IMG/VR virus record: IMGVR_UViG_3300020451_001661
Coordinates: 1 to 50,361 of that record
Strand: one strand, 5' to 3'
DNA from: a virus
Length of the DNA: 50,361 nt
Made by a program: the position numbers and the translations under genes. This document shows, piece by piece, positions 38,769-50,264 of this stretch (position 1 is its first letter; each line of letters opens with the position of its first letter). The notes beneath the pieces are model-generated. The model had not been told where the DNA came from. It saw only the letters and a list, made by a program, of their open reading frames with translations, and made no database searches.

Positions 38769-38797
38769 ATTATACTCGTTTATTTAGTGTGTGTCAA
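38769..38797 (-). promoter_or_regulatory. Consensus sigma70-type promoter for the glycosyltransferase
   Basis: TTGACA (38792-38797) and TATAAT (38769-38774) are separated by exactly 17 bp on the minus strand. The -35 overlaps the final codons of the SGNH gene. It ends 22 bp from the ATG at 38746. Confidence 0.8.
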
Positions 38798-39416
38798 TCT
38801 GGTTAATTATGAAATCTGCAACTTTTCTATGACCCTTGGTATTGAAGTGACCGTCTATCTTTTTTATGTGTTCATGATAGAAATATTCGTGTTTCTTATA
38901 CATTCCCAATATAGATTCATGCTTTTCAAAAAGTCTTCTTGTTACAGTAGGTAATTCACCACCATTACATCTTCTTCTCCATATATTATCGTAAGATGCA
39001 TGATTATTATCAAATTGCAATAAAATTAAGGGAATATTTCTTTTATTAAATTCTTGCTCTAATAAAAACCGATTTTTGTAAAAATTTTTAGAACCTATAT
39101 CATCATTATAATACTTTTCATAAAATTGCCGACAACTAGGTTCCGAAGGTAAGAATTTGTATGGAGTGTTAGTTGTTGGAGTTATTAATTCCATTCTATC
39201 AGTATGAGTCATCATAATAATTGCATAGTCGCATTTATTATGCTCTAAAAATTCAAACGTTCGTCTAACTATTGCATCGTTACTTGACCCCTCTACAGCA
39301 TCATTCCTATGATCTGCATTGTAATGGTTACTTACTAATGTAGAAAACCTTTCATCCTCTTCGTGTTCTAATCGTACACCGTCTGTATGAGAACATCCAT
39401 TAAAATAAAAAAACAT
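38784..39416 (-). CDS. SGNH/GDSL-type hydrolase-like protein
   Basis: Elements of the SGNH fold are visible: FNGCSHTDG at the N-terminus with the putative nucleophile Ser9, a GSSND block with Asn46, and near the C-terminus DGHFNTKGHRKVADF, giving the Asp188-x-His190 and His196 expected of block V. These enzymes are esterases or acyl hydrolases that often trim glycan acyl groups. It lies next to a glycosyltransferase, so a surface-glycan function is a reasonable inference. The start has the same promoter module as the right-hand accessory genes. Confidence 0.65.
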   Translation of the reverse strand: MFFYFNGCSHTDGVRLEHEEDERFSTLVSNHYNADHRNDAVEGSSNDAIVRRTFEFLEHNKCDYAIIMMTHTDRMELITPTTNTPYKFLPSEPSCRQFYEKYYNDDIGSKNFYKNRFLLEQEFNKRNIPLILLQFDNNHASYDNIWRRRCNGGELPTVTRRLFEKHESILGMYKKHEYFYHEHIKKIDGHFNTKGHRKVADFIINQIDTH

Positions 39417-39442: not shown

Positions 39443-39484
39443 ATTATAATGGTTATGGATCAAAGGCAATGTAACCAATGATAC
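39443..39484 (-). promoter_or_regulatory. Box/promoter module upstream of the SGNH gene
   Basis: Minus-strand TATAAT (39443-39448), TTGCCT at 15 bp (39464-39469) and the box read on the plus strand as GTAACCAATGATAC (39471-39484). The leader contains AAGCAATCAATAATT before the ATG. This copy stands 6 kb away from the main cluster of modules. Confidence 0.65.
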
Positions 39485-45682: not shown

Positions 45683-45725
45683 ATTATAGTCGATAGTGAC
45701 TAGAGTGCAATGTACATTTTATACA
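45683..45725 (-). promoter_or_regulatory. Box/promoter module for the 88-residue gene
   Basis: Minus-strand TATAAT (45683-45688), 16-bp spacer with internal TAGTC/GACTA dyad, TTGCAC (45705-45710), and the 13-mer box, plus strand GTACATTTTATAC (45712-45724). The box holds the stop codon of the upstream gene. Confidence 0.7.
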
Positions 45726-46177
45726 ATGCTAAATTCTAGTTGATTGTCCTCTGTAGGTAGATCAGCAAGTGTTAGAGGTTTTTGAAAGATAACCATGCCA
45801 TCATAGAAATTGATTTCTGTATCTGTGTTTGAATCTCTAACTATCCACTTACCTCTAACTTGTACTATTCTCACTTTTCCATTAGTGTGTAAATGTAGGA
45901 TAGCGTTTAGTCTTTCCTTAGTTGTTTTTGTATAGTAGTTTTGAGTGAATAGTTTGACTTTCTGATTATCGTAGTTAGTAGGGTCATAGGAGCATATTAG
46001 ATTGCCATGTAGGTAAACATCTACTATTCTACTACCATCTTGCCTTACTCTAGTTTCTGTGTTACCAGATTTTTGGTTACAATTCATTCTCATTAGTAGA
46101 GATGTATCCTGAGATGGTTTTGAAAATGTATTCCAGATATATGACTGAGTAGTTAGGTTAGTGAGATCGAATTCCAT
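45719..46177 (-). CDS. Accessory protein of unknown function (152 residues)
   Basis: I start at ATG 46177, just after the CAATCAATCA leader; longer frames would run through a terminator and promoter. The product is beta-rich: TRVRQDGSRIVDVYLHGNLI, then LNAILHLHTNGKVRIVQVRGKWIV, and a C-terminal EINFYDGMVIFQKP. The pattern of paired strands suggests a small barrel or sandwich. No family recognised; no catalytic motif. The N-terminal 40 residues look helical. Confidence 0.65.
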   Translation of the reverse strand: MEFDLTNLTTQSYIWNTFSKPSQDTSLLMRMNCNQKSGNTETRVRQDGSRIVDVYLHGNLICSYDPTNYDNQKVKLFTQNYYTKTTKERLNAILHLHTNGKVRIVQVRGKWIVRDSNTDTEINFYDGMVIFQKPLTLADLPTEDNQLEFSIV

Positions 46178-46202
46178 TTTGTTTGATTGATTGATATACT
46201 TT

Positions 46203-46256
46203 ATTATAGAGAAAAAAAAGGGAACTGTCAATAAGTTCCCTTGTATCATTTTATAC
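46203..46256 (-). promoter_or_regulatory. Box plus promoter nested in a terminator (46.2 kb)
   Basis: Minus-strand TATAAT (46203-46208), 17-bp spacer, TTGACA (46226-46231), box on the plus strand GTATCATTTTATAC (46243-46256). The -35 lies in the loop, sharing one closing base, of the terminator at 46212-46241; the spacer is the terminator's 3' arm and U-tract. The box contains the stop of the upstream gene. Confidence 0.75.
46212..46241 (-). terminator. Intrinsic terminator overlapping a promoter
   Basis: An 8-bp stem AGGGAACT / AGTTCCCT with a 7-nt loop and eight T on the minus strand, directly after the gene 46251-46592. Confidence 0.85.
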
Positions 46257-46592
46257 TCTGACCTTTCTGTTATAAAATGCTTTGCGATCGCTGTATCCTG
46301 TAATTCTCTGAAGTTCATCAGATAAATCTTGGAAAAATGATTCTCCATTGAATCCTAGTTTTTCGATCTCATAATAAGTAAATGGAATTGCTGAAAGTGC
46401 TAAACCTGAGAACCAGTATTCTAGACTTTCATAACCTCCTACCTCTACCATGTAGCGATCGAAGCACCATTCAAACTTATCTGAGTCTGACCAGTTTTTT
46501 GAGTCAGTATTGTCTAGAATAGCATTGTTTGAATAATCATTTTCTAGATCAGAATTGATTGCGTCTAGTAGAATTGTTTTTAGAGAAGTCAT
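46251..46592 (-). CDS. Accessory protein of unknown function (113 residues)
   Basis: The product is acidic with LLDAINSDLENDYSN, then FEWCFDRYMVEVGGYESLEYW and TYYEIEKLGFNGESFFQDLS. The spacing of aromatic residues suggests a compact helical fold. I recognise no family with certainty. Its own promoter module lies upstream and a terminator follows at once, so it is a single-gene transcript. Confidence 0.65.
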   Translation of the reverse strand: MTSLKTILLDAINSDLENDYSNNAILDNTDSKNWSDSDKFEWCFDRYMVEVGGYESLEYWFSGLALSAIPFTYYEIEKLGFNGESFFQDLSDELQRITGYSDRKAFYNRKVRV

Positions 46593-46615
46593 AACTGATT
46601 GATTGCTATACTGTT

Positions 46616-46657
46616 ATTATAGAGGATAGTGGATAATTGTCTATGTACAAATGATAC
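46616..46657 (-). promoter_or_regulatory. Box/promoter module for the 113-residue gene
   Basis: Minus-strand TATAAT (46616-46621), 16 bp, TAGACA (46638-46643), 13-mer box on the plus strand GTACAAATGATAC (46645-46657). Confidence 0.7.
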
Positions 46658-46666
46658 ATACGTCAG

Positions 46667-46873
46667 TTAGTTTCGATACTCATAGGGATTAGTCCAGTTT
46701 GCTCGCTGATTCTCAGTAATGTATCCATCAGCAGCAAGAAATTCAGTATAATCTTGCCATGCAAAAACTTTTGCCAGTTTGGTCACTCTTTTGTTTTCTC
46801 TTTTACATCTTAGAGTGTAAACCTTCCAGTTATATTTGAATTGTTGGATTGCTTCAACTTTAGTTGTTTTCAT
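46667..46873 (-). CDS. Small basic accessory protein (68 residues)
   Basis: The product is basic with VEAIQQFKYNWKVYTLRCKR and KLAKVFAWQDYTEFLAADGYI, ending in TNPYEYRN. The basic N-terminal half would suit nucleic-acid binding. No family recognised. It has its own module upstream (46897-46938). Confidence 0.6.
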   Translation of the reverse strand: MKTTKVEAIQQFKYNWKVYTLRCKRENKRVTKLAKVFAWQDYTEFLAADGYITENQRANWTNPYEYRN

Positions 46874-46896
46874 GTAAGTGCCTGATTGATGTTTCT

Positions 46897-46938
46897 ATTA
46901 TAATGGATAGGAGCGAAAGAGCAATGTACATTTTATAC
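46897..46938 (-). promoter_or_regulatory. Box/promoter module for the 68-residue basic gene
   Basis: Minus-strand TATAAT (46897-46902), 16 bp, TTGCTC (46919-46924), 13-mer box on the plus strand GTACATTTTATAC (46926-46938). Confidence 0.7.
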
Positions 46939-46983
46939 ATTGTTTTGTATCGCTTTCGCCCCTCTAAACAAGTAGAATAAGAG

Positions 46984-47187
46984 TCACTCATTCATCAGTT
47001 CAATTATTTCAAGTTGTTCCCAGTTTTGAGTCATCAGTTCATAAATATCGGGATTAGTCAATACAACTTGATTAGACTTATCTAATCGTATCATAACCTG
47101 ATACTCTTTTGTGAGATACTTGACTTTATCCCCTATTCCAATTTGAGAGAATGACTTATAAAATCGGTTAGTTGTTTCTACTGGCAT
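46984..47187 (-). CDS. Small accessory protein (67 residues)
   Basis: The product has QIGIGDKVKYLTKEYQVMIRL then NQVVLTNPDIYELM, the strand-turn-strand pattern of a small SH3-like or KOW-like barrel, which is inference. The start overlaps the preceding gene by 10 bp, so it is translated from the three-gene transcript that begins at 47.55 kb. Confidence 0.6.
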   Translation of the reverse strand: MPVETTNRFYKSFSQIGIGDKVKYLTKEYQVMIRLDKSNQVVLTNPDIYELMTQNWEQLEIIELMNE

Positions 47188-47357
47188 AAATCCTCAAATA
47201 GTGACTGGGCAACTTCCTCAAGTCGATTCTGAACATTTTTGTTCATGAGATACAACTCTTCCATTCTATCCTTAGAATAATCGTTAGCGATTCTAAAATC
47301 CTCATAAGCAATTTCAAAACAATTTTCTAGTATTGTTTCATGATGTAAAACTGACAT
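47178..47357 (-). CDS. Small helical accessory protein (59 residues) with strong RBS
   Basis: ATG 47357 is preceded by AGGAGG at 8 bp, a full Shine-Dalgarno, unlike the first genes of transcripts in this region. The product is helical and acidic (ILENCFEIAYEDFRIANDY, then NVQNRLEEVAQSLFED). The stop overlaps the start of the 67-residue gene. No family recognised. Confidence 0.6.
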   Translation of the reverse strand: MSVLHHETILENCFEIAYEDFRIANDYSKDRMEELYLMNKNVQNRLEEVAQSLFEDLCQ

Positions 47358-47369
47358 TGAAAAATCCTC

Positions 47370-47519
47370 CTATAGTGATTGAATAAAGGTTTCTGTGTTG
47401 GTATCGATTTCTTCGATAGCAACAATTTTTGTAGTTTGCTGAAAATAGTCCTCTGCTATGATTCTAGCGTGGTCTAAGTCTTTAGTAAACTTGACTGGAC
47501 TTGAGTAAATTACAAACAT
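47370..47519 (-). CDS. Very small accessory protein (49 residues)
   Basis: ATG 47519 follows the CAATCAATCATCACT leader of the module at 47543-47584. The product is 49 residues (FVIYSSPVKFTKDLDHAR, then QQTTKIVAIEEIDTNTE), predicted beta-helix-beta. It is the first gene of a three-gene transcript with 47178-47357 and 46984-47187. Confidence 0.6.
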   Translation of the reverse strand: MFVIYSSPVKFTKDLDHARIIAEDYFQQTTKIVAIEEIDTNTETFIQSL

Positions 47520-47542
47520 AGTGATGATTGATTGATGTTTCT

Positions 47543-47584
47543 ATTATAAAGGTTATACTAGGATAAGTCTAGTACAAATGATAC
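47543..47584 (-). promoter_or_regulatory. Box/promoter module for the three-gene transcript
   Basis: Minus-strand TATAAT (47543-47548), 17 bp, TAGACT (47566-47571), 13-mer box on the plus strand GTACAAATGATAC (47572-47584) directly abutting the -35. Confidence 0.7.
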
Positions 47585-47593
47585 ATGATGATG

Positions 47594-47761
47594 TTACGCT
47601 ATTTCTAAGTCTGATAAAAATACCTGATGAGTTAGAAATTCATAGTCGTTTATCCAATTTTTGACTACTGCCAAATTGGTCACTCTATCCAATATAATAA
47701 CCTCACTTCCATTGAGATCATTGTGAATTTTGTGATTGACTTCCATGCCTAGTTGGATCAT
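47594..47761 (-). CDS. Small accessory protein (55 residues)
   Basis: ATG 47761 gives a 55-residue product with KIHNDLNGSEVIILDRVTNLAVVKN, a beta-hairpin-like pattern, and a helical end. No family recognised. It is preceded by the module with the longest inverted repeat (47786-47845). The leader has AAGTCAATCAAGAAAACT and no Shine-Dalgarno. Confidence 0.6.
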   Translation of the reverse strand: MIQLGMEVNHKIHNDLNGSEVIILDRVTNLAVVKNWINDYEFLTHQVFLSDLEIA

Positions 47762-47785
47762 AGTTTTCTTGATTGACTTGTTTCT

Positions 47786-47845
47786 ATTATAATCGTTATG
47801 GTATCATAAGCAATGTAACCAATGATACCATGTATAATATTATAC
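47786..47845 (-). promoter_or_regulatory. Tandem-box promoter module (47.8 kb)
   Basis: Minus-strand TATAAT (47786-47791), 16 bp, TTGCTT (47808-47813), then two 14-mer boxes on the plus strand, GTAACCAATGATAC (47815-47828) and GTATAATATTATAC (47832-47845), 3 bp apart. A 10-bp inverted repeat ATGGTATCAT / ATGATACCAT (47798-47807, 47822-47831) brackets the -35. The second box contains the stop of the upstream gene. Confidence 0.75.
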
Positions 47846-48181
47846 AAAGAGTGCCTTATTCAAGAAATTTACAACTCTTCTTGCCTGAGTACCTAAACAT
47901 CTTGATACGACTTTCTCATTTACAACTAATTCATCAATTTCCCATTTATCATTTTTCATCATATCATCAAAATCTTTTGAAGTTCCCCCATGTATATTGA
48001 CAGTTAGGTCATCATGAGCAAGTTTATAAAATACAGTTGCTATTGTTTTGTTTTGTACTCTGATAGCACTTGTAAATTGGTTATCTGTATGGTATGAATT
48101 CCATATAGTAACGTGATTGTTTAGACTACAGGATTCTCTTTTGTTGATTGCCTGTAAAATTCTTTTTTGATAAGCGTCCAT
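47840..48181 (-). CDS. Accessory protein of unknown function (113 residues)
   Basis: The product begins MDAYQKRILQAINKRESCSL, then has a beta-rich middle (TSAIRVQNKTIATVFYKLAHD, split as TSAIRVQNKTIA and TVFYKLAHD) and DKWEIDELVVNEKVVSRCLG. The N-terminal helix plus sheet layout resembles the 152-residue protein at 45.7 kb only in style; I do not claim homology. It has its own promoter module. Confidence 0.6.
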   Translation of the reverse strand: MDAYQKRILQAINKRESCSLNNHVTIWNSYHTDNQFTSAIRVQNKTIATVFYKLAHDDLTVNIHGGTSKDFDDMMKNDKWEIDELVVNEKVVSRCLGTQARRVVNFLNKALFV

Positions 48182-48207
48182 GATTGATTGATGATTGACT
48201 TGTTTCT

Positions 48208-48267
48208 ATTATAATGGTTATGGTATCAAGTGCAATGTGACAAATGATACCATGTATAATTTGTTAC
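48208..48267 (-). promoter_or_regulatory. Tandem-box promoter module (48.2 kb)
   Basis: Minus-strand TATAAT (48208-48213), 16 bp, TTGCAC (48230-48235), boxes on the plus strand GTGACAAATGATAC (48237-48250) and GTATAATTTGTTAC (48254-48267), 3 bp apart. A 9-bp inverted repeat ATGGTATCA / TGATACCAT (48220-48228, 48245-48253) brackets the -35. Confidence 0.75.
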
Positions 48268-48476
48268 CAAGTGAAGTTCAATGACTTGACTTGAGACTTT
48301 CTATAAACTAGGCAAGCAATTTCTGCTTCATTTTTAGTTTTGAACCACCCTAAAACCTCATCATCACAAAATGTTGCAACATATAAAGGTTTTTCATGAC
48401 CGCACCATTGTAAACTGACTCTAAAACGCTCATCTAGTGTTTTTCCTTCAACTGTGATAAGTTTTGTTTTTGCCAT
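48264..48476 (-). CDS. Small accessory protein (70 residues)
   Basis: The product has KLITVEGKTLDERFRVSLQW, LYVATFCDDEVLGWFKTKNEAEIACL and a basic end. A strand-strand-strand-helix order is apparent (beta sheet with GWFKTKNEAE like small sheet-helix proteins). No family recognised. It has its own module with CATCAATCAATC leader. Confidence 0.6.
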   Translation of the reverse strand: MAKTKLITVEGKTLDERFRVSLQWCGHEKPLYVATFCDDEVLGWFKTKNEAEIACLVYRKSQVKSLNFTW

Positions 48477-48502
48477 GATTGATTGATGTTTGACTTGTTT
48501 CT

Positions 48503-48562
48503 ATTATAGTTGCTAGTGTAGAGAAAGCAACGTATCAAATGTTACAAGGTATCAAATGATAC
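48503..48562 (-). promoter_or_regulatory. Tandem-box promoter module (48.5 kb)
   Basis: Minus-strand TATAAT (48503-48508), 16 bp, TTGCTT (48525-48530), boxes on the plus strand GTATCAAATGTTAC (48532-48545) and GTATCAAATGATAC (48549-48562), again 3 bp apart. The second box is a perfect 14-bp dyad (GTATCA-AA-TGATAC read loosely as a 6-2-6 palindrome) and includes the upstream stop codon. Confidence 0.75.
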
Positions 48563-48758
48563 CCTGTTCAATTTGCTCAAATAACGAATCGCCCATTTCA
48601 AAAATAATTTCCCCAGTTACGTTATCCCTGACTATAGAATAACCATATTCTTGACCACACTCGATTGCATAATCTTCTATAGTCTCATAATCGTTAGAAT
48701 GAACGTCTCCACCCACAAATTTGTTAGGTGTTTCACAAGTGTATTTGAATTGAGTCAT
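48552..48758 (-). CDS. Small acidic accessory protein (68 residues)
   Basis: The product has TCETPNKFVGGDVHSNDYETIEDYAIECG, split as TPNKFVGGDVHSNDYE and TIEDYAIECGQEYGYS, then VRDNVTGEIIFEMGDSLFEQ. The VRDNVTGEIIF strand-turn-strand is typical of small regulator-like phage proteins, but there is no family call. The C-terminal codons and stop lie in a GTATCATTTGATAC box. Confidence 0.6.
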   Translation of the reverse strand: MTQFKYTCETPNKFVGGDVHSNDYETIEDYAIECGQEYGYSIVRDNVTGEIIFEMGDSLFEQIEQGII

Positions 48759-48784
48759 GATTGATTGATGATTGACTTGTTTCT

Positions 48785-48837
48785 ATTATAATGAAAAAGG
48801 GATAGAAGTCAACTCCTATCCCTGTATCATTTTTTAC
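48785..48837 (-). promoter_or_regulatory. Box plus promoter nested in a terminator (48.8 kb)
   Basis: Minus-strand TATAAT (48785-48790), 16 bp, TTGACT (48807-48812) wholly inside the loop of the terminator at 48794-48823, box on the plus strand GTATCATTTTTTAC (48824-48837). Same order of parts as at 46.2 kb. Confidence 0.75.
48794..48823 (-). terminator. Intrinsic terminator overlapping a promoter
   Basis: An 8-bp stem AGGGATAG / CTATCCCT with a 10-nt loop and a five-T run on the minus strand, right after the gene 48834-49031. Confidence 0.85.
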
Positions 48838-49031
48838 AAATGGTCGTGCCATTTTGTACCGAACGAACTCATCATTTCATTATCAGTTGGTTCATAATTG
48901 ACGATTGAGTCAATTATTTCAAGAGCGTCATACAACTCATTGAAGTTTGTATATTCCTGATCTTGAAAATCTTTGCTTTCTTGCCTAGTCAGGTAAGCAT
49001 CTAGGTAACTTTGAATTTCTGCTAGTCTCAT
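48834..49031 (-). CDS. Small acidic accessory protein (65 residues)
   Basis: The product is helical: LAEIQSYLDAYLTRQESKDFQ, then NFNELYDALEIIDSIVNYEP, and a polar end. Two amphipathic helices are likely. No family recognised. It has its own module (49057-49098) and is followed directly by a terminator. Confidence 0.6.
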   Translation of the reverse strand: MRLAEIQSYLDAYLTRQESKDFQDQEYTNFNELYDALEIIDSIVNYEPTDNEMMSSFGTKWHDHL

Positions 49032-49056
49032 GATAATGTCATTGATTGATGTTTCT

Positions 49057-49098
49057 AATATAGAGGATAGTCAGAATCTTGTCTAGTACATTTGATAC
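49057..49098 (-). promoter_or_regulatory. Box/promoter module for the 65-residue gene
   Basis: Minus-strand TATATT (49057-49062), 17 bp, TAGACA (49080-49085), 13-mer box on the plus strand GTACATTTGATAC (49086-49098). This is the only copy whose -10 departs from TATAAT/TATTAT. Confidence 0.65.
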
Positions 49099-49099
49099 A

Positions 49100-49237
49100 T
49101 TATACTGTATCATTCTTACGTTGACGAATTCTCTTGAGTTCATCACGATTGAATGAACGATAATCAAGTTCGGTAGCGATTGCCATGCCTACAGTATAAA
49201 GTGCATAGCAACCACCTATAACGATAAAAAGTTCCAT
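49100..49237 (-). CDS. Small membrane-anchored protein (45 residues)
   Basis: ATG 49237 overlaps the stop of the 111-residue gene as TAATG. The product starts with a hydrophobic segment (ELFIVIGGCYALYTVGMAIA), then a polar and basic tail (RDELKRIRQRKND). One membrane helix with a basic cytoplasmic tail is likely. It is too short for most gene callers. Confidence 0.55.
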   Translation of the reverse strand: MELFIVIGGCYALYTVGMAIATELDYRSFNRDELKRIRQRKNDTV

Positions 49238-49572
49238 TAGAAAAATTGTACTCCATTAGTTTCAACGTCATCTACATATTCAGCAAAGTCATTACTAACT
49301 TGTTCGGTGCTGTCATGACTCTGTTGCCATGTAAGTTGACGATATATTTCAAAAAGTGAACGTAAACTCACTCCTTCTAAGTCAGTCCAGTTAGAAACTA
49401 GATCAAGTTGACTCTCATCATATCCACCAGACTTGAAAGTTGGTGCTGATATGAAATTGAACCCTATATCTATCATAAAAGTTCTACCGAACTCTTCACT
49501 CACGAATGTTTGAAGCGGTAAAAACTTACCATACTTATCGTTTTGGTAGTCTTCAAAAATGTAAGTTCTCAT
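49237..49572 (-). CDS. Accessory protein of unknown function (111 residues)
   Basis: The product has FEDYQNDKYGKFLPLQTF, TFMIDIGFNFISAPTFKSGG and LFEIYRQLTWQQSHDS, with an acidic C-terminus. No family recognised. It is coupled (TAATG) to the membrane peptide and has its own module with a leader ending TCAATCAATCAC directly before ATG. Confidence 0.6.
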   Translation of the reverse strand: MRTYIFEDYQNDKYGKFLPLQTFVSEEFGRTFMIDIGFNFISAPTFKSGGYDESQLDLVSNWTDLEGVSLRSLFEIYRQLTWQQSHDSTEQVSNDFAEYVDDVETNGVQFF

Positions 49573-49590
49573 GTGATTGATTGAATTACT

Positions 49591-49636
49591 ATTATAATAA
49601 TCGATATGATACTATAAGTCAAGTATCAATTTATAC
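49591..49636 (-). promoter_or_regulatory. Box/promoter module for the 111-residue gene
   Basis: Minus-strand TATTATAAT (49591-49599), with TATTAT 17 bp from TTGACT (49617-49622), box on the plus strand GTATCAATTTATAC (49623-49636). TGATAC / GTATCA arms also bracket the -35 here. Confidence 0.7.
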
Positions 49637-49895
49637 CATGTTCAGTTTTGAGTCCTGCTCTGAATGGGTCTCCATTTATCCAGTCAATTTTGGATTCTTT
49701 GTTTGCTATGTCAAAACAGACTTCACACATACAGTCAACTTTTGGAAATTTACGTCTCCAGTCATAATCCTCTTGACAAAAATCTCCGTCCCAGTAATAA
49801 TATAATTCTGGTTGATAATCTGGTAACGCTTGAATTTCTGGTTCGCCATCAGTATGCTCATCATCAAAGTTACCACATACATCACAATATGCCAT
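49626..49895 (-). CDS. Cys-rich, probably zinc-binding accessory protein (89 residues)
   Basis: It starts MAYCDVCGNFDDEH and later has FCQEDYDWRRK and VDCMCEVCFDIANKE; the CxxC pair at residues 4-7 and the C-x-CxxC cluster near residue 56 suggest one zinc-ribbon-like site with an intervening acidic/Tyr-rich loop. The start overlaps the stop of the 101-residue gene by 1 bp. The stop is part of the next module's box. No family recognised. Confidence 0.6.
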   Translation of the reverse strand: MAYCDVCGNFDDEHTDGEPEIQALPDYQPELYYYWDGDFCQEDYDWRRKFPKVDCMCEVCFDIANKESKIDWINGDPFRAGLKTEHGIN

Positions 49896-50200
49896 TACAC
49901 ACCCCCATGCTGTAAATGGACGAGGTAAAAATCCCAGTTATTGAGTAGAATATCTCTTACTCTTTCACGATCAAGACTGTCTCCCTCGCCCCATGTGTAG
50001 GTCTCAGAATTCCTCTTATTGATTGTTGCTAAGTATTGATGAGTTGCTATCAATATGTCAGTCTTATTGAGTGGAGCGTCTCCCTCGACCTTTCTCATAG
50101 GGTAAAGAGGGTCAACGTCTCCATAAAATGAAAAGACGTAATCAATAAAATCTGAGAGTTCTGTATTTAGATCTCTTTCTGGTCTTGTTCCTGAGTTCAT
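49895..50200 (-). CDS. Conserved accessory protein (101 residues)
   Basis: The product has LSDFIDYVFSFYGDVDPLYPM, then KTDILIATHQYLATI and RERVRDILLNNWDFYL, giving three helices. I recall similar proteins from T4-like cyanophages but no function. It is coupled to the Cys-rich gene and preceded by the module at 50219-50264 with a leader ending TCAATCAATCAC. Confidence 0.65.
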   Translation of the reverse strand: MNSGTRPERDLNTELSDFIDYVFSFYGDVDPLYPMRKVEGDAPLNKTDILIATHQYLATINKRNSETYTWGEGDSLDRERVRDILLNNWDFYLVHLQHGGV

Positions 50201-50218
50201 GTGATTGATTGAATTACT

Positions 50219-50264
50219 ATTATAATAATCGGTATGCTAGTATAAGTCAATGTACATATTATAC
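50219..50264 (-). promoter_or_regulatory. Box/promoter module for the 101-residue gene
   Basis: Minus-strand TATTATAAT (50219-50227), with TATTAT 17 bp from TTGACT (50245-50250), 13-mer box on the plus strand GTACATATTATAC (50252-50264). The layout is the same as at 49.6 kb. Confidence 0.7.

Follow-up and report, generated by a model that had tools for sequence, protein, structure and literature searches.

The stretch of DNA analyzed here, the 50,361 nucleotides of the IMG/VR record IMGVR_UViG_3300020451_001661 (hereafter the window), comes from a T4-like cyanophage; its terminase, baseplate and ferredoxin genes gave phage family matches, and the nearest relatives of its gp6 were found among Prochlorococcus and Synechococcus myoviruses. 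Between 45.4 and 50.2 kb, the window holds a run of small genes on the minus strand, presumed to be early genes, at whose promoters a dyad of 13 or 14 nt, here called the box, is repeated. All 16 boxes of the original prediction were recovered, 15 of them inside this cluster and one, at 39471, outside it. They had been read on the plus strand, whereas genes and promoters lie on the minus strand, on which the box is GTATCATTTGATAC-like (14 nt, GTA-N8-TAC) or GTATAAAATGTAC-like (13 nt, GTA-N7-TAC). The form GTA-N8-TAC accounted for nine of the 16, GTA-N8-CAC for one and GTA-N7-TAC for six (Table 1), and seven boxes contained the stop codon of the preceding gene. The sole box promoter outside the cluster serves gene 38784-39416 (minus strand), the product of which has an SGNH-hydrolase-like start (FNGCSHTDG). 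Numerous divergent paralogues of this gene were present in related contigs and, given this SGNH-type resemblance and the many paralogues, it was rejected as a candidate regulator.

The boxes were far more frequent than in shuffled sequence. With up to three mismatches allowed, the consensus matched the window 28 times, compared with 11.8 times (standard deviation 4.0) in 100 shuffles, none of which equaled 28. A composite pattern coupling the box to the -10 element (GTA-N7/8-[TC]AC-N22..24-TAT[AT][AT]T) occurred 13 times, and ten of these occurrences lay in the final 5 kb; 200 shuffles gave 0.76 on average and never more than 4. When the inner spacer of this pattern was varied, enrichment was confined to N7 and N8; when the distance from box to -10 was varied, 22–23, 33–34 and 40 nt were enriched and essentially no others. 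Furthermore, the window held 13 matches to a strict form of the motif and 811 kb of structural genes from relatives held three, so the matches are not scattered at random.

With regard to promoter geometry, the order on the minus strand is box, degenerate -35 and TATAAT. At 11 of the 13 promoters, 22–24 nt separated the TAC of the box from the -10 (measured to an overlapping TATTAT for the boxes at 49623 and 50252), and at the two terminator-linked promoters the gap was 33–34 nt, longer by one helical turn. Three promoters carried tandem pairs, in which a second, distal 14-nt box is placed in a 17-bp register, 40 nt from the -10. The box had originally been placed 0–2 bp upstream of a -35 hexamer; this geometry holds, but the fixed mark is the -10, and most such -35s are poor (TTGC.., TAGAC.). 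A terminator-like hairpin was present at only two of the 13 promoters, and its loop contains the -35 of the next promoter, an arrangement in which each unit would terminate one transcript and initiate the following one. The early leaders (e.g., 48181-48213) were variants of TATAATAGAAACA(AGTCAATC)ATCAATCAATCATG, without an obvious Shine-Dalgarno sequence.

Table 1. Boxes and terminator-like hairpins of the window, with the distance from the box TAC to the -10 element; G001 is a related contig described in the text.
Feature	Sequence	Coordinates	Strand	-10 distance (-10 position)	Remarks
14-nt box	GTATCATTGGTTAC	39471..39484	minus	22 nt (39448-39443)	upstream of gene 38784-39416
13-nt box	GTATAAAATGTAC	45712..45724	minus	TAC-N23-TATAAT (45688-45683)	contains upstream gene's stop codon
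14-nt box	GTATAAAATGATAC	46243..46256	minus	TAC-N34-TATAAT (46208-46203)	terminator-linked; contains upstream gene's stop codon
terminator-like hairpin	AAGGGAACTTATTGACAGTTCCCTT + T-run	46218..46242	minus		next promoter's -35 TTGACA (46231-46226) in loop
13-nt box	GTATCATTTGTAC	46645..46657	minus	TAC-N23-TATAAT (46621-46616)	G001 orthologue 14 nt
13-nt box	GTATAAAATGTAC	46926..46938	minus	TAC-N23-TATAAT (46902-46897)	G001 orthologue without box, -35 TTGACA
13-nt box	GTATCATTTGTAC	47572..47584	minus	TAC-N23-TATAAT (47548-47543)	
14-nt box, proximal of tandem pair	GTATCATTGGTTAC	47815..47828	minus	TAC-N23-TATAAT (47791-47786)	
14-nt box, distal	GTATAATATTATAC	47832..47845	minus		17-bp register; contains upstream gene's stop codon
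14-nt box, proximal	GTATCATTTGTCAC	48237..48250	minus	CAC-N23-TATAAT (48213-48208)	
14-nt box, distal	GTAACAAATTATAC	48254..48267	minus		17-bp register; contains stop codon
14-nt box, proximal	GTAACATTTGATAC	48532..48545	minus	TAC-N23-TATAAT (48508-48503)	
14-nt box, distal	GTATCATTTGATAC	48549..48562	minus		17-bp register; contains stop codon
14-nt box	GTAAAAAATGATAC	48824..48837	minus	TAC-N33-TATAAT (48790-48785)	terminator-linked; contains stop codon
terminator-like hairpin	AGGGATAGGAGTTGACTTCTATCCCT + T-run	48798..48823	minus		-35 TTGACT (48812-48807) in loop
13-nt box	GTATCAAATGTAC	49086..49098	minus	TAC-N23-TATATT (49062-49057)	followed by TAGACA, like host amt promoters
14-nt box	GTATAAATTGATAC	49623..49636	minus	TAC-N23-TATTAT (49599-49594)	contains stop codon
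13-nt box	GTATAATATGTAC	50252..50264	minus	TAC-N24-TATTAT (50227-50222)	

The same early block was found in two further contigs, G001 (121 kb, L096-L102) and G002 (20 kb, L103), whose gp6 is 79% and 78% identical, respectively, to that of the window, and whose promoters align with those of the window. Nearly all boxes were retained in G002, and four adjacent ones, all of 14 nt, in G001. At the orthologous promoters 46621 and 47548, the box had 13 nt in the window and in G002 but 14 nt in G001, a swap which indicates that a single factor probably reads both lengths. About half of the promoter-proximal boxes were of the N7 type, which was the commonest promoter-proximal form in the window and the dominant one in G002 and in another contig, G042. 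The latter shows the promoter in its pure form, with a 14-nt box in the distal position, separated by three bases from a 13-nt proximal one that stands 23–24 nt from the -10. The box was essentially absent from most of the genome of isolate P-SSM4 and from the early regions of P-RSM6 and P-TIM40. Comparison of the early region with phages by megablast yielded no match, and a short-query blastn search of phages with the tandem box gave only chance-level matches. An over-specific pattern likewise found nothing in viral contigs; broader patterns were then scanned with N8, N7 and, as a control, N9, the last of which gave five matches resembling unrelated or coding sequence.

The presence of the box was inversely related to the quality of the -35. 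The -35 matched the consensus at 3.7 of six positions where a box was adjacent and at 5.6 of six where the box was missing or displaced (p about 1e-4 or less, orthologues not being independent). Promoters without an adjacent box had TTGACA/T, and in G001, the orthologues of promoters 45688 and 46902 lacked the box and carried TTGACA. This trade-off favors activation, as it is the pattern expected of a class II activator site. An upstream box that compensates for a poor -35 in a phage promoter is also a feature of the T4 middle promoters, with their MotA box. The MotA box is centered at -30 and has another sequence, whereas the center of the box studied here would lie near -42. T4-like cyanophages are not known to have the MotA/AsiA switch of T4.

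Taken together, the shuffles, the distance to the -10, the conservation at orthologous promoters and the near-absence from structural genes support the position-fixed dyad on which a sequence-specific regulator of the small, presumably early genes had been proposed; nothing that we found supports the accompanying suggestion of an anti-host device. That the box is a promoter element bound by a protein is well supported by these sequence patterns, and we regard it as very probable. RNA folding was strong for some boxes and near zero for others, and an RNA hairpin was rejected as a general explanation. In the mechanism that we propose, the box would be bound by a sequence-specific DNA-binding protein and would supply the upstream half of a recurring early-promoter cassette, which runs from (the previous gene's stop codon and) the box through a degenerate -35 and TATAAT to the leader and ATG. 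Assuming that transcription starts about 7 nt after TATAAT, the box center would fall near -42, at the position of a class II activator, and the box would stand in for the weak -35; at the two terminator promoters, where the box is displaced upstream by a helical turn, the -35 is of the consensus type. Activation appears somewhat more probable than repression.

As to the protein that reads the box, a scan of all viral contigs with the 13-nt promoter led to loci in which both box lengths are packed around the gene for a winged-helix-like protein of 110 residues. Of 62 strict boxes in seven other contigs of cyanophages, 53 lay within 700 bp of this gene (nominal binomial p about 3e-56, the related contigs not being independent); in one 120-kb stretch, all 11 strict boxes were near it, and arrays counted as many as 11 boxes within roughly 1 kb. 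Members of the family (alignment A2) include L243:1544-1873, L247:9959-10324 and relatives, all from uncultured T4-like cyanophages. The gene comes after Kyano_Gp96 and, in L247, ahead of an element that also occurs in the window at about 44990-44880, a genomic slot that has its equivalent in the window. An AlphaFold2 model of middling confidence (predicted local distance difference test score, pLDDT, 69.5) comprised a helix-helix-helix-wing arrangement with a C-terminal helix, and the top Foldseek matches in the PDB belonged for the most part to winged-helix regulators of the MarR, BlaI/MecI and PadR types (best E 0.0057). The candidate resembles these regulators in its predicted fold and in having dyads near its own gene; it differs from them in lacking sequence homology above threshold and in not having been found in the window's clade. 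No homologue was detected in INPHARED at E 0.01 or in 20 host genomes. A Pfam scan of 30 window proteins and 74 G001 proteins showed no DNA-binding regulator among the families listed (25 of 35 for G001).

Several RNA-like features were seen at these loci and in the window. At L230:330-410, L227:150-230 and L247:9660-9740 (all minus strand), a box promoter points away from the winged-helix gene and towards a conserved RNA-like stretch of short length (AGTCTGGGGTAGGACT ... ACTCCCCCTGC), which resembles a hairpin whose loop could pair with downstream sequence, with GGGG/CCCC in one contig and TGAG/CTCA in another. Another contig with a winged-helix locus carries a manA RNA (RF01745; L231:605-796). 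In the window, a consensus promoter (TTGACA-17-TATAAT) with no clear gene downstream lies at 45141-44950 (minus strand), at the end of the early block; its G-rich inverted segments, kept in G001 and G002, had no Rfam match, and the segment overlaps a small open reading frame of about 48 amino acids (45259 to about 45111). Between 44500 and 50361, no known RNA family was found.

The strongest competitor for the reading of the box is NtcA, the CRP-family nitrogen regulator of the host, which would place phage early genes under a nitrogen-stress activator already present when the DNA enters. The earlier remark that no described regulator was known with this site must be qualified: the 14-nt form equals the NtcA consensus GTAN8TAC, and the 13-nt form is unlike NtcA sites as found in host promoters. 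We compared 36 amt and glnA loci from Prochlorococcus and one marine Synechococcus, in which the recognizable NtcA sites had half-sites GTATCA or TGATAC and lay 22 or 23 nt from TAN3T. The amt promoters read GTATCAACAACTAC-TAGACAC..-N23-TAAATT, sharing TAC-TAGACA with window promoter 49062, and those of glnA had GTATCAGCTGATAC, GTACTTATTGATAC and others followed by -N22-TAN3T; the spacing seen at most window promoters falls in this host range. These host promoters agree with published NtcA features (PMC3898017, PMC9430850), including a canonical site centered at -41.5, a -10 of TAN3T and top sites that favor T4, C5 and A11 (PMC3898017). Between one and 16 NtcA sites per genome were predicted in all 16 T4-like cyanophage genomes of Sullivan et al. 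(2010; PMC3037559), and the older consensus TGTN9/10ACA, as cited in PMC8136909, would include the 13-nt form. A precedent for a host regulator at such promoters, albeit with another sequence and another protein, is PhoB, which binds T4-like cyanophage promoters (pho box) in vitro (PMC10976474). A phage-encoded CRP-type protein was sought as reader and none was found in 11 phage records.

Class II NtcA promoters (GTAN8TAC-N20..24-TAN3T) are alike in the GTA..TAC dyad, half-sites, spacing and weak -35, and the 14-nt form can hardly be distinguished from an NtcA site. This is not so for the 13-nt form: no N7 site was seen in the 36 host loci, and the N7 pattern in 20 host genomes gave only matches that, judged by eye, looked unrelated to such promoters. 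As N7 is the commonest promoter-proximal form, we did not class the boxes as NtcA sites. The 17-bp tandem register and the displaced boxes with a consensus -35 also set them apart, the arrays around one phage gene are hard to reconcile with NtcA, and the box is missing from phages that were isolated on Prochlorococcus NATL2A. Overall, we consider a host NtcA reader rather unlikely.

The 13-nt form and the arrays lead us to prefer a dedicated cyanophage regulator, with the winged-helix family as the best candidate, although our confidence in this reading falls slightly short of even; boxes surrounding the regulator's own gene would imply autoregulation. Several points weigh against it. The link of the boxes to the winged-helix gene is one of association in sequence, the Foldseek E-values were only about 0.006–0.05 for a model of the quality given above, and the gene was found neither in the window, G001 and G002, all of which are incomplete, nor in isolates. 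The half-sites and the -10 distance of the 14-nt boxes equal those of host NtcA promoters. Moreover, the two box lengths imply a 1-bp change in spacing that many dimeric proteins would not tolerate, and winged-helix relatives of the candidate's type are mostly repressors.

This last point, which touches the mode of action, also bears on a further explanation, in which the boxes are operators of a repressor that shuts off the early genes, blocking RNA polymerase later in infection when bound beside or over the -35. The likelihoods that we attach to the alternatives overlap, given that activator or repressor and phage or host are separate questions. In line with repression, the boxes abut the -35, tandem pairs share a 17-bp register, and a third half-site (ATGATAC or GTATCAT) lies between -35 and -10 at 47786-47828, 48208-48250 and 49594-49636, creating ATGGTATCAT...ATGATACCAT across the -35. 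These spacer half-sites, which would suit a repressor and speak against activation, leave repression open. However, degenerate -35s at box promoters and TTGACA at their box-less orthologues are the reverse of a strong promoter held down, and we judge this explanation unlikely.

Finally, the boxes could owe their retention to gene shuffling and not to a bound protein, as cassettes of recombination and termination comparable with the promoter-early stem-loops (PeSLs) reportedly described in T4-type phages by Arbiol in 2010 and Comeau in 2014. The likeness lies in repeated early-promoter units between small, variable genes of a hyperplastic region, two of which fuse a terminator with the next promoter, in the overlapped stop codons and in long complementary flanks at some 13-nt boxes; it is nonetheless improbable, since what the units have in common is a dyad resembling a protein site, a T-run or stable hairpin is missing from most boxes, inner arm positions often mismatch, the distance to the -10 is fixed, and boxes cluster around one gene in relatives.

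Cyanophages without the box carried a different element, a 24-bp dyad TGTGACA-N10-TGTCACA located 28–30 nt (mostly exactly 29) before the -10. In its 30 distinct cases, no -35 was recognizable, the match being 2.9 of six positions and thus near the background of 2.6, and several overlapped the upstream stop codon. The loci were L095 (P-TIM40), L093 (P-SSM4), L083-L087, L090-L092 and position 60810 of G001, which has both elements. This comparison of promoter sequences suggests that T4-like cyanophages in general have early promoters with poor -35s and with upstream dyads specific to each lineage. Extending the preferred reading, a phage-encoded regulator, to the whole group, early genes may depend on lineage-specific dyads read by phage activators: in the window's lineage, the 13/14-nt box and a winged-helix family controlling its own gene and a neighboring small RNA; in others, TGTGACA-N10-TGTCACA exactly 29 nt before the -10, with lineages swapping dyads. 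We offer this as a conjecture that is possible but doubtful.

T4-like cyanophages are very abundant ocean viruses, and the timing of their early genes is poorly described. Reading of the box by host NtcA would tie the early genes of these viruses to the nitrogen status of their host, and reading by a phage protein would point to an undescribed regulator of early transcription in cyanophages. With a short site, a fixed geometry, a named host rival and a phage candidate, the question is decidable by a binding assay.

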